Shown: piece after piece, positions 22,197-33,122 of the stretch
Position numbering within the stretch: position 1 is the stretch's first letter
How the letters are laid out: each line of letters begins with the position of its first letter
IMG/VR virus record: IMGVR_UViG_3300031759_000043
Span: 1 to 48,677 of that record
Length of the DNA: 48,677 nucleotides
Direction: 5' to 3' (one strand)
Origin: a virus
Position numbers and translations under genes: made by a program
The notes under the pieces: model-generated
What the model was told of the DNA's origin: nothing
What the model saw: only the letters and a program-made list of their open reading frames with translations
The model's database searches: none

Positions 22197-22748
22197 ATGG
22201 CACGTCGACTTGAGACTGCGGACCGTGATGCGCAGATGTACATTCTCCATAAGGAGAACGTTCCGCACGAGGCTATCGCCAAACGGTTCGATGTGTCTAC
22301 TGCGACAGTCGGGAAAGGTATCCAGCGAGCCATCCATGACACGTTCCGGTTCAGCGCCGATGAGGATCGCATGGTCCTGGCGGATCAAATCGACGCGCTC
22401 ATGTTCAAGCTTCGGCGACTCCTCGCGGAGCCGCAGTACATGGTCAGCGTCAGCGGCAAGGTGGTCATCAACCCGGTTACCGGGGAGCCGTTGGTCGATC
22501 GCTCGCACGAGGTACGAGTCATGGAATCCCTGCGCAAGTTCATGGACATGCGCGCCAAGCTGCTCGGGCTTAACATGCCGGTCCGGCATCGGGTTGAGAT
22601 CACTGACAAGATGGATGACGAGATCGAGCGGCTGGCGTCGGAACTCATGCTGCACGGAGCGGGCAGCGGGATTCCGGCGGAACTGCCAGCCGGAGAAATC
22701 GTGAACGGTGAGGTTGAGCATGGCAGTGCTGACGCCGGAACCAGATGA
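22197..22748 (+). CDS. terS: Terminase small subunit-like protein, 183 aa
   Basis: ATG at 22197 follows GGAAGGGTGATGAG; earlier in-frame ATG/GTG codons are too close to the ribosome site. The N-terminus holds a helix-turn-helix (YILHKENVPHEAIAKRFDV, STATVGKGIQRAI), followed by a long helical oligomerisation region. This plan fits small terminase subunits that recognise the packaging site. The gene overlaps the large subunit gene by 29 nt, which strongly supports the call. It could alternatively be another DNA-binding regulator. Confidence 0.7.
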   Translation: MARRLETADRDAQMYILHKENVPHEAIAKRFDVSTATVGKGIQRAIHDTFRFSADEDRMVLADQIDALMFKLRRLLAEPQYMVSVSGKVVINPVTGEPLVDRSHEVRVMESLRKFMDMRAKLLGLNMPVRHRVEITDKMDDEIERLASELMLHGAGSGIPAELPAGEIVNGEVEHGSADAGTR

Positions 22749-25515
22749 GCCTGAAGGGGACGAAAAGGAGACCGAGCTTCCCTCCGACTGGCGGGATCTG
22801 AGTCCCGAGGCGAAGAAGGTGCTGCTCCACAAGCTGCGCGGGCGGCATGTTTCGCTGGGACTGGGGGGGCCTCGGGGGTGGCGGTCGCTAGCGAGGCCGA
22901 AGCAGCTGCCGCCGAATGACCCGATGCACCATCTGCCAGATGAGAACGGGTTTGCTTGCGGATGCGATGGTCCAGATGAGAACTGGAACATCTGGATGTT
23001 CATGGCCGGACGAGGGTGCGTCGCAGGTGAGACTAGGATATACCTGCCTTTGGAGAACCGGCACGAGCGAATTGACGTACTTGCTCGCGCCGGGGAGCCG
23101 ATCGTCGTCTCCTCGCTGACAGAGGGGGGAGCCCGTCCGGTGCTGACCGATGGGGCTCCATTCGTGCGCGGCGTAGATCAGCTGTACCGGGTGACGATGG
23201 ACGATGGGAGAGCTATCACTGCCACCGATCGTCACCGATTCCTGACTCCGCAAGGATGGCGGCTACTCGCTGACGTGCGCGTCGGACAGCCTCTAGCCGG
23301 AGGCGCTCCCGTTCCTCCGGGGGCAGATTTCTCTTACCGATCAACGTATCGCGGAGATGCGCGGCATTGGAAGAATACAGCCGCAAGTTCTCAACTCGAT
23401 TATCCGACGTATCCCCGTTACGGTGGTCCACTACCTCATCCGGAAGCAGATAGCGGCCGAGGAAATGCTCCATCATCAGACGGTGCTGACGCACGTAGCC
23501 TGATGATGTCGCATGCGGATGATCGGGTATCCTCACCAGGATGTAACCATCTTCGTCGACAGAGTAGCCACCACGCCAGAAGTAGTTACGCTCCGGGTGA
23601 GCTTTCGCTTCCAGCCGTGGCAACTCTAGCTCTATCAGACGCTGACGCACTGTCTCCTCATTACAGCCCAGCATCTCAGCCATCTCGCGGCATGTCAGCT
23701 GATGCGATTGGAAATAGCGCAGGCGCTCTTCATCCAGGTAGAACCGGCGCGATTCCGACATCAACTTACGGGTGGCGGGGGTTTTCTGACGACCGCGCAG
23801 CTGAACTCCGGCCTTCTGGAGAGCACGACCTACTGTCTGATAGGATACTCCGGCAGTCTTGGCTAGATCCTTCAAGTTCTCCCCGGCTTGGTAGCGCTCT
23901 ATCAGACTGGGAAGCAGCTCAGGAGGAATCCGGGAAAAACCTAGCGGCGGCATACACCCATACTACAGTATGGACGCGGGTCCTGGCTATAACCCCCGCA
24001 GGGACCGGGCTGTTCTACGATATGACAGTGCCGGGATCGGAGAACTATGCCGCCGAGGGAATGTGGAACCACAACTGCGGGAAGACCTGGGCCGGAGCTA
24101 ACTGGATCATCGAGCAAGCGCTGAAAGACCCTGGCTCGGTTTGGGCTGTTGTCGCACCTACATTCCGCGACGTTAGAGTCACCTGCTTCGAGGGTCCTTC
24201 CGGAATTCGGAAACAGCTCGAACCCGGTGAAGAGGCCCAATGGCGGAGGAATGAACTTCGTCTGGACTTGGTAAACGGCTCGATTATCTACGGATACTCA
24301 GCTGACCAACCAGAACGACTTCGCGGTTCTAACCTTTCCGGGGCTTGGTGCGACGAGACCGGGAGCTGGCAATATGAGGAGACCTGGTATGAGGGTCTTG
24401 TTCCTGCGCTGAGAATTGGCAAGCACCCGCGTGTCATGGTCACGTCTACCCCGCGACCCACGCATCTGATCCGGGACCTGTTCAACCGACGTGACGGCAC
24501 TATGCACGCCACAAGCGCCAGCACATGGGAGAATGCAAAGAATCTCTCCGCTGCCGCGCTTGATGAACTCCGGCGTCGTTACGAAGGAACACGTCTCGGT
24601 CGTCAGGAGCTTGAAGGCGTCCTGCTGGACGACCTTGAGGGGGCTTTGTGGAAGCGTTCCGATATCGACGCGGCCCGAGTGAAGCTAGCGGATGTGCCGG
24701 ATCTGGTACGGGTGGTTGTCGGTATTGACCCGGCAGTCACGTCCGGGGAGGAATCGGACGAGACCGGTATCATCGTCGCTGGTGATGACGGACACGGACA
24801 CGGCTACGTTCTCGGTGACTATTCCATGAAGGGAACGCCTGACCAGTGCATGCGCGAAGCCGTGCGAGCTTACAAGCGCCATGGCGCGGACTGCATCGTT
24901 GCGGAAGTCAACAACGGCGGTGACTTCATCGGCACCGTGCTCCGGAACGTGGACCCGGAAGTGCCGTACCGAACGGTGAGAGCGTCGCGAGGCAAGGCTA
25001 TCCGGGCAGAGCCAGTGTCAGCGCTTGCAGAGCAGCGACGGCTGCATCATGTGGGGTCATTCCCTGAACTGGAAGACCAGATGTGCAGCCTGGTCCCGGG
25101 CATTTCCGCAGGACCTGATGACCGGGTGGACGCCTGCGTCTGGGCTGTGTTCGAGCTGCGCGGGCTGAGTCAGGCGTCGTGGCTCAGTGCCTACGGCGTC
25201 GCTCGCTGCGCGGGATGCGACCATGCGTATAGCGTCGGGCTCAAGGAATGCCCGCGCTGCCGGGCTGCCAATCCGCTGGAAGCCGAGCGGACGGTTGTCG
25301 CTGGCGAGGTGGTCGTGGATGATGGTGATGTACCTCAGCCCGGTGGATGGGCTTATGTGTACGGCATCAAGAGATGCCCAAAGGGACACGCCTACTCCGA
25401 CCGGAACGGGAATGCGGGAACCTGCCCGCGCTGCCGAGGCGGAGGGCTGGATTTCCTGCGGAGTACGGGGCGCGGGTTGACACCCGGCGGCGGGACTGGT
25501 ATGATTCAGTCGTGA
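22720..25515 (+). CDS. terL: Terminase large subunit interrupted by an intein, 931 aa
   Basis: ATG at 22720 follows GAGGTTGAGC. Once the 353-residue intein (23017-24075) is removed, a 578-residue packaging ATPase/nuclease remains. The Walker A motif is rebuilt across the junction (GRG + CGKTWAG), Walker B is SGAWCDE, and the RNase H-like nuclease shows VVGIDPAVTSG (near residue 666), IVAEVNNGGDF and DDRVDACVWAV (near 800). The intein splits the catalytic ATP loop, so no packaging activity is possible before splicing. Unusually, the C-terminus carries two zinc-ribbon motifs (CAGCDHAY...CPRC and CPKGHAYS...CPRC). The stop overlaps the next leaderless start. Confidence 0.93.
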   Translation: MAVLTPEPDEPEGDEKETELPSDWRDLSPEAKKVLLHKLRGRHVSLGLGGPRGWRSLARPKQLPPNDPMHHLPDENGFACGCDGPDENWNIWMFMAGRGCVAGETRIYLPLENRHERIDVLARAGEPIVVSSLTEGGARPVLTDGAPFVRGVDQLYRVTMDDGRAITATDRHRFLTPQGWRLLADVRVGQPLAGGAPVPPGADFSYRSTYRGDARHWKNTAASSQLDYPTYPRYGGPLPHPEADSGRGNAPSSDGADARSLMMSHADDRVSSPGCNHLRRQSSHHARSSYAPGELSLPAVATLALSDADALSPHYSPASQPSRGMSADAIGNSAGALHPGRTGAIPTSTYGWRGFSDDRAAELRPSGEHDLLSDRILRQSWLDPSSSPRLGSALSDWEAAQEESGKNLAAAYTHTTVWTRVLAITPAGTGLFYDMTVPGSENYAAEGMWNHNCGKTWAGANWIIEQALKDPGSVWAVVAPTFRDVRVTCFEGPSGIRKQLEPGEEAQWRRNELRLDLVNGSIIYGYSADQPERLRGSNLSGAWCDETGSWQYEETWYEGLVPALRIGKHPRVMVTSTPRPTHLIRDLFNRRDGTMHATSASTWENAKNLSAAALDELRRRYEGTRLGRQELEGVLLDDLEGALWKRSDIDAARVKLADVPDLVRVVVGIDPAVTSGEESDETGIIVAGDDGHGHGYVLGDYSMKGTPDQCMREAVRAYKRHGADCIVAEVNNGGDFIGTVLRNVDPEVPYRTVRASRGKAIRAEPVSALAEQRRLHHVGSFPELEDQMCSLVPGISAGPDDRVDACVWAVFELRGLSQASWLSAYGVARCAGCDHAYSVGLKECPRCRAANPLEAERTVVAGEVVVDDGDVPQPGGWAYVYGIKRCPKGHAYSDRNGNAGTCPRCRGGGLDFLRSTGRGLTPGGGTGMIQS
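23216..23953 (-). CDS. HNH homing endonuclease, antisense inside the intein, 245 aa
   Basis: A minus-strand gene fully inside the terminase intein. The protein has two helix-turn-helix units (ENLKDLAKTAGVSYQTVGRA near 25-45; CREMAEMLGCNEETVRQRL near 88-106), a beta stretch (DEDGYILVRIPDHPH) and an HNH core: RQHRLMMEHFLG, then VVDHRNGDTSDNRVENLRLY with His177 and Asn189. This is the HNH_3 type typical of phage homing enzymes. ATG at 23953 has only a weak ribosome site; a palindrome with TAGTAT lies just upstream. Its stop lies opposite intein block B. It is offset by one base from the sense codons. It presumably cleaves intein-free terminase genes. Confidence 0.88.
   Translation of the reverse strand: MPPLGFSRIPPELLPSLIERYQAGENLKDLAKTAGVSYQTVGRALQKAGVQLRGRQKTPATRKLMSESRRFYLDEERLRYFQSHQLTCREMAEMLGCNEETVRQRLIELELPRLEAKAHPERNYFWRGGYSVDEDGYILVRIPDHPHATSSGYVRQHRLMMEHFLGRYLLPDEVVDHRNGDTSDNRVENLRLYSSNAAHLRDTLIGKRNLPPEERERLRLEAVRRARQRVAAILAESGIGDDRWQ
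23958..23973 (-). promoter_or_regulatory. Palindrome upstream of the antisense HNH gene
   Basis: CCATACT-AC-AGTATGG, 7-bp arms, 5 bp upstream of the HNH start codon and inside intein codons before block F. It could act as promoter -10 region (TAGTAT on the minus strand) or operator. No clear -35 is seen. Confidence 0.35.
25477..25505 (+). promoter_or_regulatory. Promoter TTGACA-17-TATGAT, leaderless gene
   Basis: Perfect -35, 17-nt spacer, strong -10, with GTG 6 nt downstream. The -35 lies in the loop of CGGGT-TGAC-ACCCG (25473-25486). It sits within the last codons of the terminase gene. Confidence 0.8.
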
Positions 25516-29039: not shown

Positions 29040-32000
29040 ATGTCGTCACGCGGAGCAGTGCTCTCGGCTGCTAAGTACATTCCGGGAGGAGCGCGGCCGA
29101 CGCCTGCTCCGCAGGGAGCGGGGCCGTACTCCGGCATGCTGAGCCCGCTAGCGATGCAGCTGGCAAATGAGCGGGGGTACGCGAATACGTACGGACCATT
29201 TTTGCCACGTCCGACACGGACGTTTACCGACGGCGCGTTCGGTCCCTTTTCTCCGATCCTTCCTGTTCCTGTTGATGCTCCCGAGGTGGAAGACGGGCAG
29301 CCGGATCCCCGGCTGTGGGAGTACCCGGTCGGCTGGAACCTGCCAGTCGGACGGCCAGGGACTGAAGGTCTTAAGCTTGTCGACTTCGGAACGTTGAAGG
29401 TGCTCTCAGAGACCTACTCCGTGGCACGGTCTTGCATTGACCGGCGCAAGTACGAGATCTGCGGCCTGGACTGGGACATCGTGCCCACGCACGAGGCATC
29501 AAAGGCTTATCAAGGGGATAGAGCTGCGATGCGGGACTTTGGGGAACGGGTTGCGAAAGCGAAGAAATTCTTCCGGCAGCCTGATCCGGACTACTTCACC
29601 TTTTCGGATTTTCTTTCGGCTCTGCTGGAGGAAGTGTTCGTCTACGACGCGCTGGCGATTGTCATGCGTCCTAAGTGGGGTAAGGGGATGGGGAAGGGAC
29701 TGCTCGGATCCGACCTGGACTGCCTGGAGCTAGTTTCCGGTTCGACCATCCGGCCTCTGGTCGGCATGCACGGTGAGATGCCGCGTCCTCCGGCACCGGC
29801 CTACCAGCAGTACCTCTATGGCGTGCCCCGTTCCGACTACATGACGATGATCACGCAGCGGGACATTGACGAGGGCGGGCTGTCCGGGTCGGAAGTGCAG
29901 AGTTTCCGGTCTGACCAGCTGCTGTACCTGCGGACTACACCACGCCGGAATACGCCTTACGGATTCAGTCTCGTAGAAAAAGCTATCGTCCCCATTCTCA
30001 CAGGACTGCGCAAGCAGGCGTTCCAGCTGGAGTACTTCTCAGAGGGAACTGTTCCGGCGGTGTACATCTCGCCTGGTGATGCGAATATCACTCCGAACCA
30101 GATTCGGGAGCTGCAGGATGCGCTGAATGCGATCGCCGGAGATCAGGCGTTTCACCACAAGATTATCGTGCTGCCGCCCGGATCGAAGACGATGCCGCAG
30201 CGGGACGCCCAGCTCGCTGATCAGTTCGATGAAATTGTCATGGCGGAAGTCGCCATGGTTTTTGACGTAGACCCGATGTCGCTCGGCATTATTCCTAAGG
30301 TCTCGACTACTGTCTCGCCGTTTGCCGCCAAGGAAATGGCGCAGGCATCGACGACGGTACATGACAGGACGTCGACCAAGCCCCTGCTCAAGTTCCTCGT
30401 GGATATCTTCAACAACGTGCTGCATCGCGTCTGCGGTCAGGACGACATGAAATTCACGTTCGAGGGACTAGCCGAGACTCAGAACGAGTCCGCGATGACG
30501 GATCTCATCGTCAAGCAGGTCCAGTACGGCATCAGGTCGGTCGATGAAGGGCGAGCTGAGCTAGAACTGCCGCCGTGGAACCTGCCGGAGACGTCGGGGC
30601 CGGTAGTCTTCACCCAGATGGGGCCGGTGCCGTTCGAGATGGCGCCGCAACTGCTCGCGCAGCAGCAGGCTGGTGCGAGCGGCAGCGGCAGCGGCGGGAA
30701 CTCATCCGGGAGCGGCAAGCGGACGAGGGCGACCTCGACCACCGGACGCGGGGATCAGTACGGCGGGCCGGGAGTGCCCCGGCACGGGAAGCCGATTGCT
30801 GCACCGGCGTCGACGCGTCTCAGCTCCGACGTACCGCCGGAAGGACGACGAGGCGGCGGACAGACTAGGACGCCTGCGCACTCGGCTGCTGAAGGCGCGA
30901 TGTCTACCGGGTCGTCCAAGCCGGGCGGCGGGCGTGTCGGTAAGAATGCTGAGAGCGGAATGAATCGTGCCGTTGCTTCCGAGCTGGAAGCACTTGGTCG
31001 GCATCTGCGCAAAGGCCGCGACATCGGTACGTGGGAACCACGCCACATTCCGGTGCCAGCCTTCGAGATTCTCATTGAGGATATCGAAAAAGGGCTGACC
31101 TTTGACGAGGCAGCGAGCGGGGTACTCGTGCAGGGGGTGGTGGTGAGTGATGCCCCAAAAGCTGGATCCTCGACCGGAGTGAGGGAATGGCCCGGGTGGA
31201 AGCATGACCTGGGGCTGGTTGAGGCATACACCGAGATTATCCGGAAGATGTTCGCCGACGCTGCCGATGATGCGGATGGTGCGCGGCGGGACTGGGCTGG
31301 CGGTGTCGTGTGCTGGACGCCTGCCATGTACCAAGACGCGATGCACGCCGGACTAGCGGAAACAGTTGCGGGAGCACTCGGGCCATTGTGGACTGCCGCC
31401 TGGAAACTCGGATGGGACAGTGCCGGGGAGCTAGCAGGCGGGGTGGATGGTGACGGTGCGGCTGGCCTGGAAGCTTTTCTGGGGACTGAAGGCCGCCACT
31501 GGACTGAGGTCATTACCCGGACCGGGCTCAAGGACGCTGCGCGTCGGGCGGAAATCATCGCACGGACTGAAGTGCAGCGCGCGATGATGACTGCGGCGCT
31601 GCAGTGCTACCGTGAGGCCGGGATTTCGTACAAAGAGCTGATGGTTGCCCCGGGTGACCTGGACGAAATATGCACGGATGCTGCTGCGGACGGGATTGTC
31701 CCGCTTGACGCGGCGTTTGACTGCGGAGAGGTGATGCCGCCACTGCATATCAACTGCAGATGTGCTGTCGCTCCGGCTGGAATTACGGTCATGCCACCTC
31801 ATGCGCACATTGGAAAGGGTGAGGGTGAGGGTGAGGGTGAGCCTGACGTGGCGTTCCTGCTCATCCGGACCAGGAATGATGAGGGGAAGCGGCGTTACCT
31901 GCTGCAGAAGCGAGGAGACGGATCGCCGCATGCGGGGGACTGGGGACTGCCCGGCGGGAAAGGCCATTCTGGTGAGAACGCCTGGGAAACGGCGATACGT

Positions 32001-33122
32001 GAAGCCCGGGAAGAAATGGGCGGGCTGCCCGAGCTGAATGCTGTGTGTGTCATGGAGCGGATTGACGGTGACGGGGAACGGAAATGCTCTACGTTCGTAT
32101 GTGATGTGGATGCGGAGTTCGTGCCGAATACCGGAGCCGGGCTGACTCCGGAGGAGTCGGCAGGCTGGGGCTGGTTCAGCCGTGGAGAGATCGAAGATCT
32201 TCCGCTGCATCCCGGTTTTGCGGAGACATGGGCCGGGTACCTGGAACAAGTGCTCGGGAAGAGTGTACGGCGGCGCGGGCCGAAGCGTGTGCTAGTATCC
32301 GGTCAGGAAATCTACCCTGATGATGACGAAACCGGCAGCGACGACCTGAACCCGCCTAGCGGCGGCGGGGGGGAATACCCGCATCCGCACAACATCGATC
32401 CAGTGATGCAAGCATCCGGAGGACGCTCAGGGGACGAGGGACCGCACTGGGATGGCGGGGAAGCCGAACCGTACGTCGCGACAATGAACGGACCGGGCGG
32501 CGGAACTAGCATCCGGGAAGGGCGGGTACCCAAGTCACCCGGCAAGCCGAAGGGGAGCGGGACAGGTGGCGAAGATGGCGGGGAACAGAAGCCGAAAGCG
32601 ATCCCGCTTGACGGAAATGTTCCGGATGATGAGGATGATGCTGCGCAGCCGTTTGAAAGAGGCAGACCTCCGAACGGAGTCGGCAAGTCGGCAGCGGAGT
32701 ACTCGGATCCTAACCCCGTTGAAGCTGAGCACATCCTGTCTGTCATGCGGGAAAACTTCCCGGAAAAGGCACTGGGCTGGGTAAAGCGAGCGCGGTGGAT
32801 CGGGCCGGTGCAGGTTCCGTGGGAACGAGTGAATACTGCGAATATAGACTCGTGGGCGGCATCGCACCAGCTGGACGGAGTGCGGCGGTTCGCTCGGGAG
32901 ATTCAGGCCGGGACAGGGCACTTGCATCCATCCATCCTCATCCAGCGTGAGGACGATGACAAGTGCGATATAGTGGACGGACATCACCGGGCGCTCGCGC
33001 GCCGGGCGCTCGGGAAGCCGGTGCTCGCCTACATCGGATTCGTGCGCGGGAAAGATGTTGAGGCTGCGTTGGAAACGCATTCCAGTCAGATTCACAGCGG
33101 AACGGATCCGAAGAACATTTGA
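29040..33122 (+). CDS. Portal-MuF-Nudix-ParB-like fusion, 1360 aa
   Basis: ATG at 29040 follows GAGAGGGACAGC. Residues about 80-540 form a portal protein (VLSETYSVARSCIDRRKYEI, MAEVAMVFDVDPMSLGI), the ring through which DNA passes. A Gly/Ser/Arg linker leads to a MuF-type domain (RTEVQRAMMTAALQCYREAG near 841, HINCRCAV near 903). Next is a Nudix hydrolase with intact box (GGKGHSGENAWETAIREARE, then EMGG, near 973-996). A linker leads to a ParB/Srx-like C-terminal domain with DIVDGHHRALARRALG near 1307. Portal-MuF fusions are known in actinophages and Firmicute phages; the extra Nudix and ParB-like domains may be released or injected as effectors. Confidence 0.85.
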   Translation: MSSRGAVLSAAKYIPGGARPTPAPQGAGPYSGMLSPLAMQLANERGYANTYGPFLPRPTRTFTDGAFGPFSPILPVPVDAPEVEDGQPDPRLWEYPVGWNLPVGRPGTEGLKLVDFGTLKVLSETYSVARSCIDRRKYEICGLDWDIVPTHEASKAYQGDRAAMRDFGERVAKAKKFFRQPDPDYFTFSDFLSALLEEVFVYDALAIVMRPKWGKGMGKGLLGSDLDCLELVSGSTIRPLVGMHGEMPRPPAPAYQQYLYGVPRSDYMTMITQRDIDEGGLSGSEVQSFRSDQLLYLRTTPRRNTPYGFSLVEKAIVPILTGLRKQAFQLEYFSEGTVPAVYISPGDANITPNQIRELQDALNAIAGDQAFHHKIIVLPPGSKTMPQRDAQLADQFDEIVMAEVAMVFDVDPMSLGIIPKVSTTVSPFAAKEMAQASTTVHDRTSTKPLLKFLVDIFNNVLHRVCGQDDMKFTFEGLAETQNESAMTDLIVKQVQYGIRSVDEGRAELELPPWNLPETSGPVVFTQMGPVPFEMAPQLLAQQQAGASGSGSGGNSSGSGKRTRATSTTGRGDQYGGPGVPRHGKPIAAPASTRLSSDVPPEGRRGGGQTRTPAHSAAEGAMSTGSSKPGGGRVGKNAESGMNRAVASELEALGRHLRKGRDIGTWEPRHIPVPAFEILIEDIEKGLTFDEAASGVLVQGVVVSDAPKAGSSTGVREWPGWKHDLGLVEAYTEIIRKMFADAADDADGARRDWAGGVVCWTPAMYQDAMHAGLAETVAGALGPLWTAAWKLGWDSAGELAGGVDGDGAAGLEAFLGTEGRHWTEVITRTGLKDAARRAEIIARTEVQRAMMTAALQCYREAGISYKELMVAPGDLDEICTDAAADGIVPLDAAFDCGEVMPPLHINCRCAVAPAGITVMPPHAHIGKGEGEGEGEPDVAFLLIRTRNDEGKRRYLLQKRGDGSPHAGDWGLPGGKGHSGENAWETAIREAREEMGGLPELNAVCVMERIDGDGERKCSTFVCDVDAEFVPNTGAGLTPEESAGWGWFSRGEIEDLPLHPGFAETWAGYLEQVLGKSVRRRGPKRVLVSGQEIYPDDDETGSDDLNPPSGGGGEYPHPHNIDPVMQASGGRSGDEGPHWDGGEAEPYVATMNGPGGGTSIREGRVPKSPGKPKGSGTGGEDGGEQKPKAIPLDGNVPDDEDDAAQPFERGRPPNGVGKSAAEYSDPNPVEAEHILSVMRENFPEKALGWVKRARWIGPVQVPWERVNTANIDSWAASHQLDGVRRFAREIQAGTGHLHPSILIQREDDDKCDIVDGHHRALARRALGKPVLAYIGFVRGKDVEAALETHSSQIHSGTDPKNI

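Follow-up and report, generated by a model that had tools for sequence, protein, structure and literature searches.

A probable mobile terminase intein with an HNH endonuclease encoded on its own antisense strand, and its relatives in phages

Canonical inteins combine a Hint splicing domain with an in-frame LAGLIDADG or HNH endonuclease lying between splicing blocks B and F; they occur at P-loop sites and are mobile. The same traits appear to recur in an intein of the terminase gene in the virus record IMGVR_UViG_3300031759_000043 (IMG/VR), positions 1 to 48,677, and this whole stretch of 48,677 nucleotides is referred to below as the window. Unlike in canonical inteins, the endonuclease here is predicted to be a separate protein from the opposite strand, and the insert in the sense frame is a predicted disordered linker. 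With a probability of roughly 0.85, we read the insert as a mobile intein that has its homing endonuclease encoded as a separate protein on its own antisense strand.

Antisense endonuclease genes have been described in group I introns, as a preliminary description of the window, made from its sequence, had noted. Examples are Dsq.L2066 of Didymium squamulosum (I-DsqI) and Dir.S956-2 of D. iridis (PMC9548176). There, too, the endonuclease gene lies opposite its host element, and a promoter of its own has been proposed. However, those host elements are RNAs and the strand opposite the gene need not encode a protein, whereas here it must stay open because it encodes the splicing protein. The ShiLan domain and the Pacc40 insertion of phage methylases contain an out-of-frame HNH on the same strand and have no splicing domain (PMC11855218). 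They share with the window an HNH that overlaps an open host frame translating to disordered sequence, and the ShiLan HNH is detectably related to that of the window family; ShiLan was checked and found to be on the same strand, in another frame, whereas the HNH of the window is antisense and sits within a Hint intein. Dassa et al. reportedly found, in 2009, fractured genes in which an endonuclease gene lies between the two parts of a split intein. In the type represented by uvsW of Salmonella phage S16, a separate endonuclease likewise arises from within the intein span, but its gene is on the same strand and the intein is made as two polypeptides, while the intein of the window is continuous. 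In the literature searched, no antisense endonuclease is reported for any intein, in agreement with the preliminary description, which knew of none; one directly relevant preprint, on the non-canonical architecture of inteins from actinobacteriophages (10.1101/2025.01.02.630785), lay outside this search. A survey of mycobacteriophage terminase inteins mentions no antisense or opposite-strand gene (PMC5050341).

The exteins of the interrupted terminase match Terminase_6N (1.4e-20) and Terminase_6C (7.5e-18) in Pfam. The intein splits the Walker A P-loop (GRG/CGKT) and ends in His-Asn, followed by the +1 Cys at 24076-24078. All residues of a class 1 Hint intein are there (C1, T70/H73, D335, H352 and N353); across 47 inteins of the family C1, T6, H73, D335, V338, Y344, G348, H352 and N353 are invariant and T70 is nearly so, and the +1 residue is C, S or T in all family inteins. 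NCBIfam recognizes intein_Nterm (6.4e-6), with intein_Cterm below the cut-off (E 0.14). AlphaFold folds residues 1-98 together with 317-353 into a Hint domain at a predicted local distance difference test score (pLDDT) of 94-98, and most of residues 103-296 score below 50. The model matches solved mini-inteins in Foldseek, among them the Ssp DnaB mini-intein (1.6e-7). The disordered linker thus predicted occupies the usual endonuclease position of an intein, and no in-frame endonuclease domain was found in the window intein, for which Pfam gave Intein_splicing alone. Intact splicing blocks at both ends and the lack of an endonuclease in the intein's own frame, both claimed in the preliminary description, are upheld by these results; its claim of a sense strand open throughout also stands, but 'low-complexity' is better replaced by 'disordered'. 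The spliced TerL aligns across the junction to the intein-free TerL of Mae-JY09. Removal of the insert would be explained by the intein frame and not by an RNA.

The antisense open reading frame (ORF) matches HNH_3 in Pfam (2.2e-11) and the HNH endonuclease family phrog_10730 (8.4e-24), with Pfam helix-turn-helix (HTH) matches at residues 13-55 and 77-110. Its AlphaFold model (pLDDT 89) consists of two HTH units, an HNH core and a C-terminal helix. Among 48 relatives, the invariant residues include W126, G129, H145, R158, E162, H177, N185, N189 and H199. Whereas the gene for I-HmuI lies on the sense strand of its group I intron, the HNH here is antisense; the two are alike in the HNH core, where the family profile aligns weakly to I-HmuI (PDB 1u3e, E 0.008) over a region that takes in HRLV and VVxHxDGNxxNNxxxNLR. 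Foldseek gave no match below E 0.001 for the whole HNH model, with I-HmuI at rank 12, probably because of the multi-domain layout. The original description of an antisense HNH with two HTH units that also covers block B is confirmed, and the coordinates of the intein and of the antisense ORF proved correct (Table 1).

Table 1. Features of the terminase intein and of its antisense ORF in the window
Feature	Position	Strand	Remarks
TerL ORF, intein-interrupted	22708..25515	+	start GTG 22708 or ATG 22720
Intein, 353 residues, Cys1 to Asn353	23017..24075	+	Intein_splicing 4.5e-10 (Pfam)
N-terminal Hint splicing half, residues 1-98, blocks A and B	23017..23310	+	
Block B TxxH, T70-H73	23224-23235	+	
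Predicted disordered linker, sense residues 103-296, kept open	23323..23904	+	AlphaFold
C-terminal Hint splicing half, residues 317-353, blocks F and G	23965..24075	+	
Putative HNH homing-endonuclease ORF, 245 residues, 738 nt with stop	23953..23216	-	ATG 23953, stop 23218-23216
HTH unit 1, HNH protein residues 14-47	23813..23914	-	Pfam, AlphaFold
HTH unit 2, HNH protein residues 75-108	23630..23731	-	Pfam, AlphaFold
HNH nuclease core, residues 130-200	23354..23566	-	HNH_3 2.2e-11; His177 codon 23423-23425
C-terminal helix, HNH residues 212-236	23246..23320	-	AlphaFold; opposite folded Hint residues ~77-101
Candidate -10 box TAGTAT	23960..23965	-	exactly 6 nt before HNH ATG (TAGTAT-GGGTGT-ATG)

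The two frames overlap in a phase that sets antisense codon positions 1, 2 and 3 opposite sense positions 1, 3 and 2, respectively, so that the second position of either frame faces the wobble of the other, just as the preliminary description had it. The body of the HNH protein is encoded opposite the disordered linker, and its C-terminal helix lies opposite the folded Hint domain just past block B. In the window the sense frame is open along the whole antisense ORF. Synonymous reshuffling of the HNH codons introduces a mean of 3.3 sense stops (P of none 0.0125), or 5.0 if the codon usage of the locus is applied (P of none 0.0025). Over the 85 HNH genes of the family described below, about 490-525 sense stops would be expected if synonymous codons were free, and 0 are observed, although this zero is partly by choice because the set was selected for an open sense frame. 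Free-standing HNH relatives contain 3-17 stops in the corresponding frame in nearly all cases, one of them (L079) having none. Openness of the sense frame through composition is ruled out by the reshuffling together with these free-standing relatives. In addition, the sense linker is more hydrophilic than the reshuffled opposite gene predicts (85 members, Wilcoxon p 4e-10), in a comparison that left out the C-terminal fifth of the HNH and whose members are not independent.

Substitutions between the window and its nearest counterpart, L003, show what each strand retains. Within the overlap, positions 1/2/3 of the HNH codons differ at 19/22/93 sites, and identity is 0.85 for the HNH protein and 0.59 for the sense protein. 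In the Hint flanks, sense positions 1/2/3 differ at 14/14/55 sites. The same direction in the overlap is found in 34/34 intein pairs; totals for the three positions are 0.27/0.23/0.54 there and 0.31/0.24/0.60 for the flanks. Inside the overlap, therefore, the position free to change is the one of the HNH frame, and outside it the one of the splicing frame. Judging by these substitutions and by the invariant residues of both proteins, both strands of one DNA stretch are under selection to encode different proteins.

The family was assembled outward from the window as seed. A scan with the HNH protein led to L003, in which the intein recurs at the same site; the DNA is 79% identical, and both frames are open with no indel. 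A scan with the alignment of these two inteins added five more terminase/ATPase inteins as well as L019, and profiles built from the eight were used for wider scans. An antisense HNH was present in 38/51 loci of the intein-alignment scan, and 66/80 loci of the HNH-alignment scan had theirs antisense within an intein. The first census, in which the loci of the scans overlap, gave an HNH match in 85/94 detected inteins, every one antisense and in the same phase; the nine inteins without it were eight mini-inteins of 134-179 residues and one of 434 residues (L022). The search for further inteins with a reverse-strand HNH, proposed in the preliminary description, thus yielded, after clustering of the HNH proteins at 90% identity, 85 distinct, non-redundant members, each with a homologous HNH on the antisense strand and each in phase 1. 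All family inteins sit at P-loop sites, in two terminase families and several helicase/ATPase families: the C-exteins of 80 members match Terminase_6N (37), Terminase_3 (30), ResIII (6), AAA_34 (4), DEAD (3), SNF2 (2) and others. One member (L027) lies in a bacterial genome contig of Polaromonas sp. CG9_12. A second HNH subfamily (VHHHDEVPANN-like) was also seen antisense in inteins in the same phase (L044, L046, L056, L060, L067 and L070). The terminase of L003 and L015 has a second intein, in which a same-strand, shifted-frame HNH-like stretch (GPIPDGYHIHHKDHDKGHNWLSNLVAV; L015:8116-8877) is followed by stops; this is perhaps a ShiLan-like out-of-frame HNH inside an intein, now decayed.

Members of the family turned out to be present in cultured phages. 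In Pectobacterium phage Ymer (OP748252.2), what was deposited as 'hypothetical protein' is a TerL ORF of 771 codons that contains a 288-residue intein with an unannotated antisense HNH; the spliced Ymer TerL aligns gap-free across the junction to the intein-free KW1E_UTAR. The words intein and HNH are absent from the text of the paper on the Ymer genus. Abuela, Sabo, Taid, Pappous, Koroua, Amona and Setonix have the same HNH match as Ymer. In Pseudoalteromonas phage PHS3 (KX912252.1) the opposite-strand HNH is annotated and the TerL annotation is truncated; the actual TerL ORF continues through a 300-residue intein. The terminases of both phages (loci L152 and L154) were misannotated because the intein carries an opposite-strand gene. 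The full-length window intein itself gave no match to deposited phages at 1e-3, and its N-terminal half gave weak, unrelated inteins only, with an antisense HNH in none of those checked. The actinobacteriophage and other HNH matches that were opened are ordinary same-strand genes or the same-strand out-of-frame ShiLan type.

Evidence for mobility comes from the histories of intein and host gene. The exteins of the window and L016 are 80-81% identical and the inteins 48%, while the window and L015 share 49-51% in the exteins and 65% in the inteins. Since these identities disagree, the history of the intein with its HNH differs from that of the host gene, which points to horizontal movement. Hint and HNH distances correlate with each other (Mantel r 0.62, 0/2000 permutations), and hence the two travel together. 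Even where identity has fallen to about 20-30%, members still have both the intein and the HNH in an unchanged phase, and this, together with the correlation, indicates long joint descent of Hint and HNH.

Signals at the HNH starts are compatible with separate expression. In high-GC members, TANNNT stands exactly 6 nt upstream of 8/27 first ATGs vs 0/183 internal ATG/GTG codons; a spacing of 6 nt is that expected of a leaderless promoter. At the HNH starts of low-GC members, a -10-like box of at least 5/6 is found in 61% vs 12% and paired -35/-10 boxes of at least 9/12 in 44% vs 8%, examples being TTGACA-18-TATAAT in L100 and TTGACA-17-GATAAT in PHS3. A Shine-Dalgarno sequence of at least 5 nt occurs at 36% of HNH starts vs 7%. 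Because the first ATG was taken automatically as the start, some members have been given a wrong one, and these statistics are weaker for it. The signals may be regarded as signatures of antisense HNH expression, short of proof. A perfect inverted repeat (CCATAC-TGTA-GTATGG, 23958-23973) spans the candidate antisense -10 box of the window; it was not seen in L003.

Splicing, antisense transcription and translation, DNA cleavage, the target site and homing are steps that we infer as follows. The sense strand would make a terminase precursor, in which the two Hint halves would fold around the roughly 200-residue linker and excise the intein by splicing to leave working TerL. The antisense strand would make the HTH-HTH-HNH endonuclease, probably under the control of a separate promoter within the intein. 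This enzyme would cut intein-less P-loop alleles, and repair would then copy the whole intein, with both genes together, into the cut allele. We also find it reasonably probable, with less confidence than for the window itself, that the family is a widespread unreported class of inteins with an antisense endonuclease, in which the two genes have co-evolved in a fixed phase, a helix of the endonuclease has its codons opposite those of the folded splicing domain, and an antisense promoter would free the endonuclease from the late terminase gene.

Several points weigh against the picture of an antisense homing endonuclease. HNH proteins adjoining terminases can act in packaging, as HK97 gp74 does, and homing is not the sole possible role. 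Promoter-like boxes are absent from some members. Because the 85 members are related, their counts lack independence, and an open sense frame was itself the criterion that defined the set. One locus, L130 (5447-6064), has an intact antisense HNH and one in-frame stop in the sense overlap. This stop may be an error, a dead allele or read-through. A minus frame broken by stops beside a conserved sense frame, named in the preliminary description as a pattern that would speak against an antisense gene, is not what the homologous inteins present: they conserve the HNH frame, and L130 is the mirror-image exception. A role for the expressed antisense HNH in the service of the phage instead of homing, e.g., in helping terminase to cut packaging sites, seems unlikely to us. 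TerL is the host in most cases (Terminase_6N and Terminase_3 together contribute 37 + 30 of 80), and free-standing HNH genes adjoin the terminase in phages such as Kabocha, but the intein, always at a P-loop, also resides in helicases and strawberry-notch-like ATPases (ResIII, AAA_34, DEAD, SNF2). A packaging-only role is less likely because such non-terminase hosts exist; moreover, the relationships of intein and extein conflict, and packaging would require no location inside an intein.

It could also be supposed that the HNH is the sole active part and that the intein does not splice, its sense frame persisting as an open insert that is left unspliced, as has been suggested for the ShiLan domain. 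Insertions of that type do stay open without a splicing domain (PMC11855218), and L130 carries its sense stop. We nevertheless hold this to be very improbable, given that splicing blocks A, B, F and G do not vary among 47 inteins, that confidence in the predicted Hint fold is high, and that the sense flanks show ordinary sense wobble; TerL being essential and its P-loop split, an unspliced protein should be inactive. Still less credit is due to the idea that the HNH is a recent arrival in this one intein, heading for loss, with a transient overlap. The eight related mini-inteins lacking an HNH either lost it or never had it, which would suit such an idea, but the identical phase at identities down to about 20-30% and the correlated Hint/HNH distances speak for long joint descent. 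As for a chance by-product of GC-rich, codon-biased sense sequence, the GC of the window is high and long antisense ORFs are common in it. However, the HNH homology (8e-24) with conserved catalytic residues, the HNH wobble pattern in the overlap and the occurrence of the arrangement in members of GC 0.34-0.50 refute a chance ORF, leaving it with a negligible probability.

Two other observations were made downstream in the window. A 1360-residue ORF (29040-33122) joins portal, minor head/MuF-like and NUDIX hydrolase matches, and the segment 33199-33443 is about 71% identical to a stretch at roughly 27.1-27.4 kb.

An antisense homing endonuclease of this kind would mean that splicing and homing of a mobile intein are divided between two proteins, each read from its own strand of one DNA stretch, and that this holds across a large family in which selection is measurable on either strand. 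The family would be among the cleaner natural cases of antisense overlapping genes, since each product has identifiable enzymatic motifs and constraint switches direction at the border of the overlap. Standard annotation of inteins and endonucleases reads one strand and would miss an antisense HNH. The proposed arrangement is testable in cultured phages, and it suggests a way for inteins of late genes to have their endonuclease expressed at a different time.

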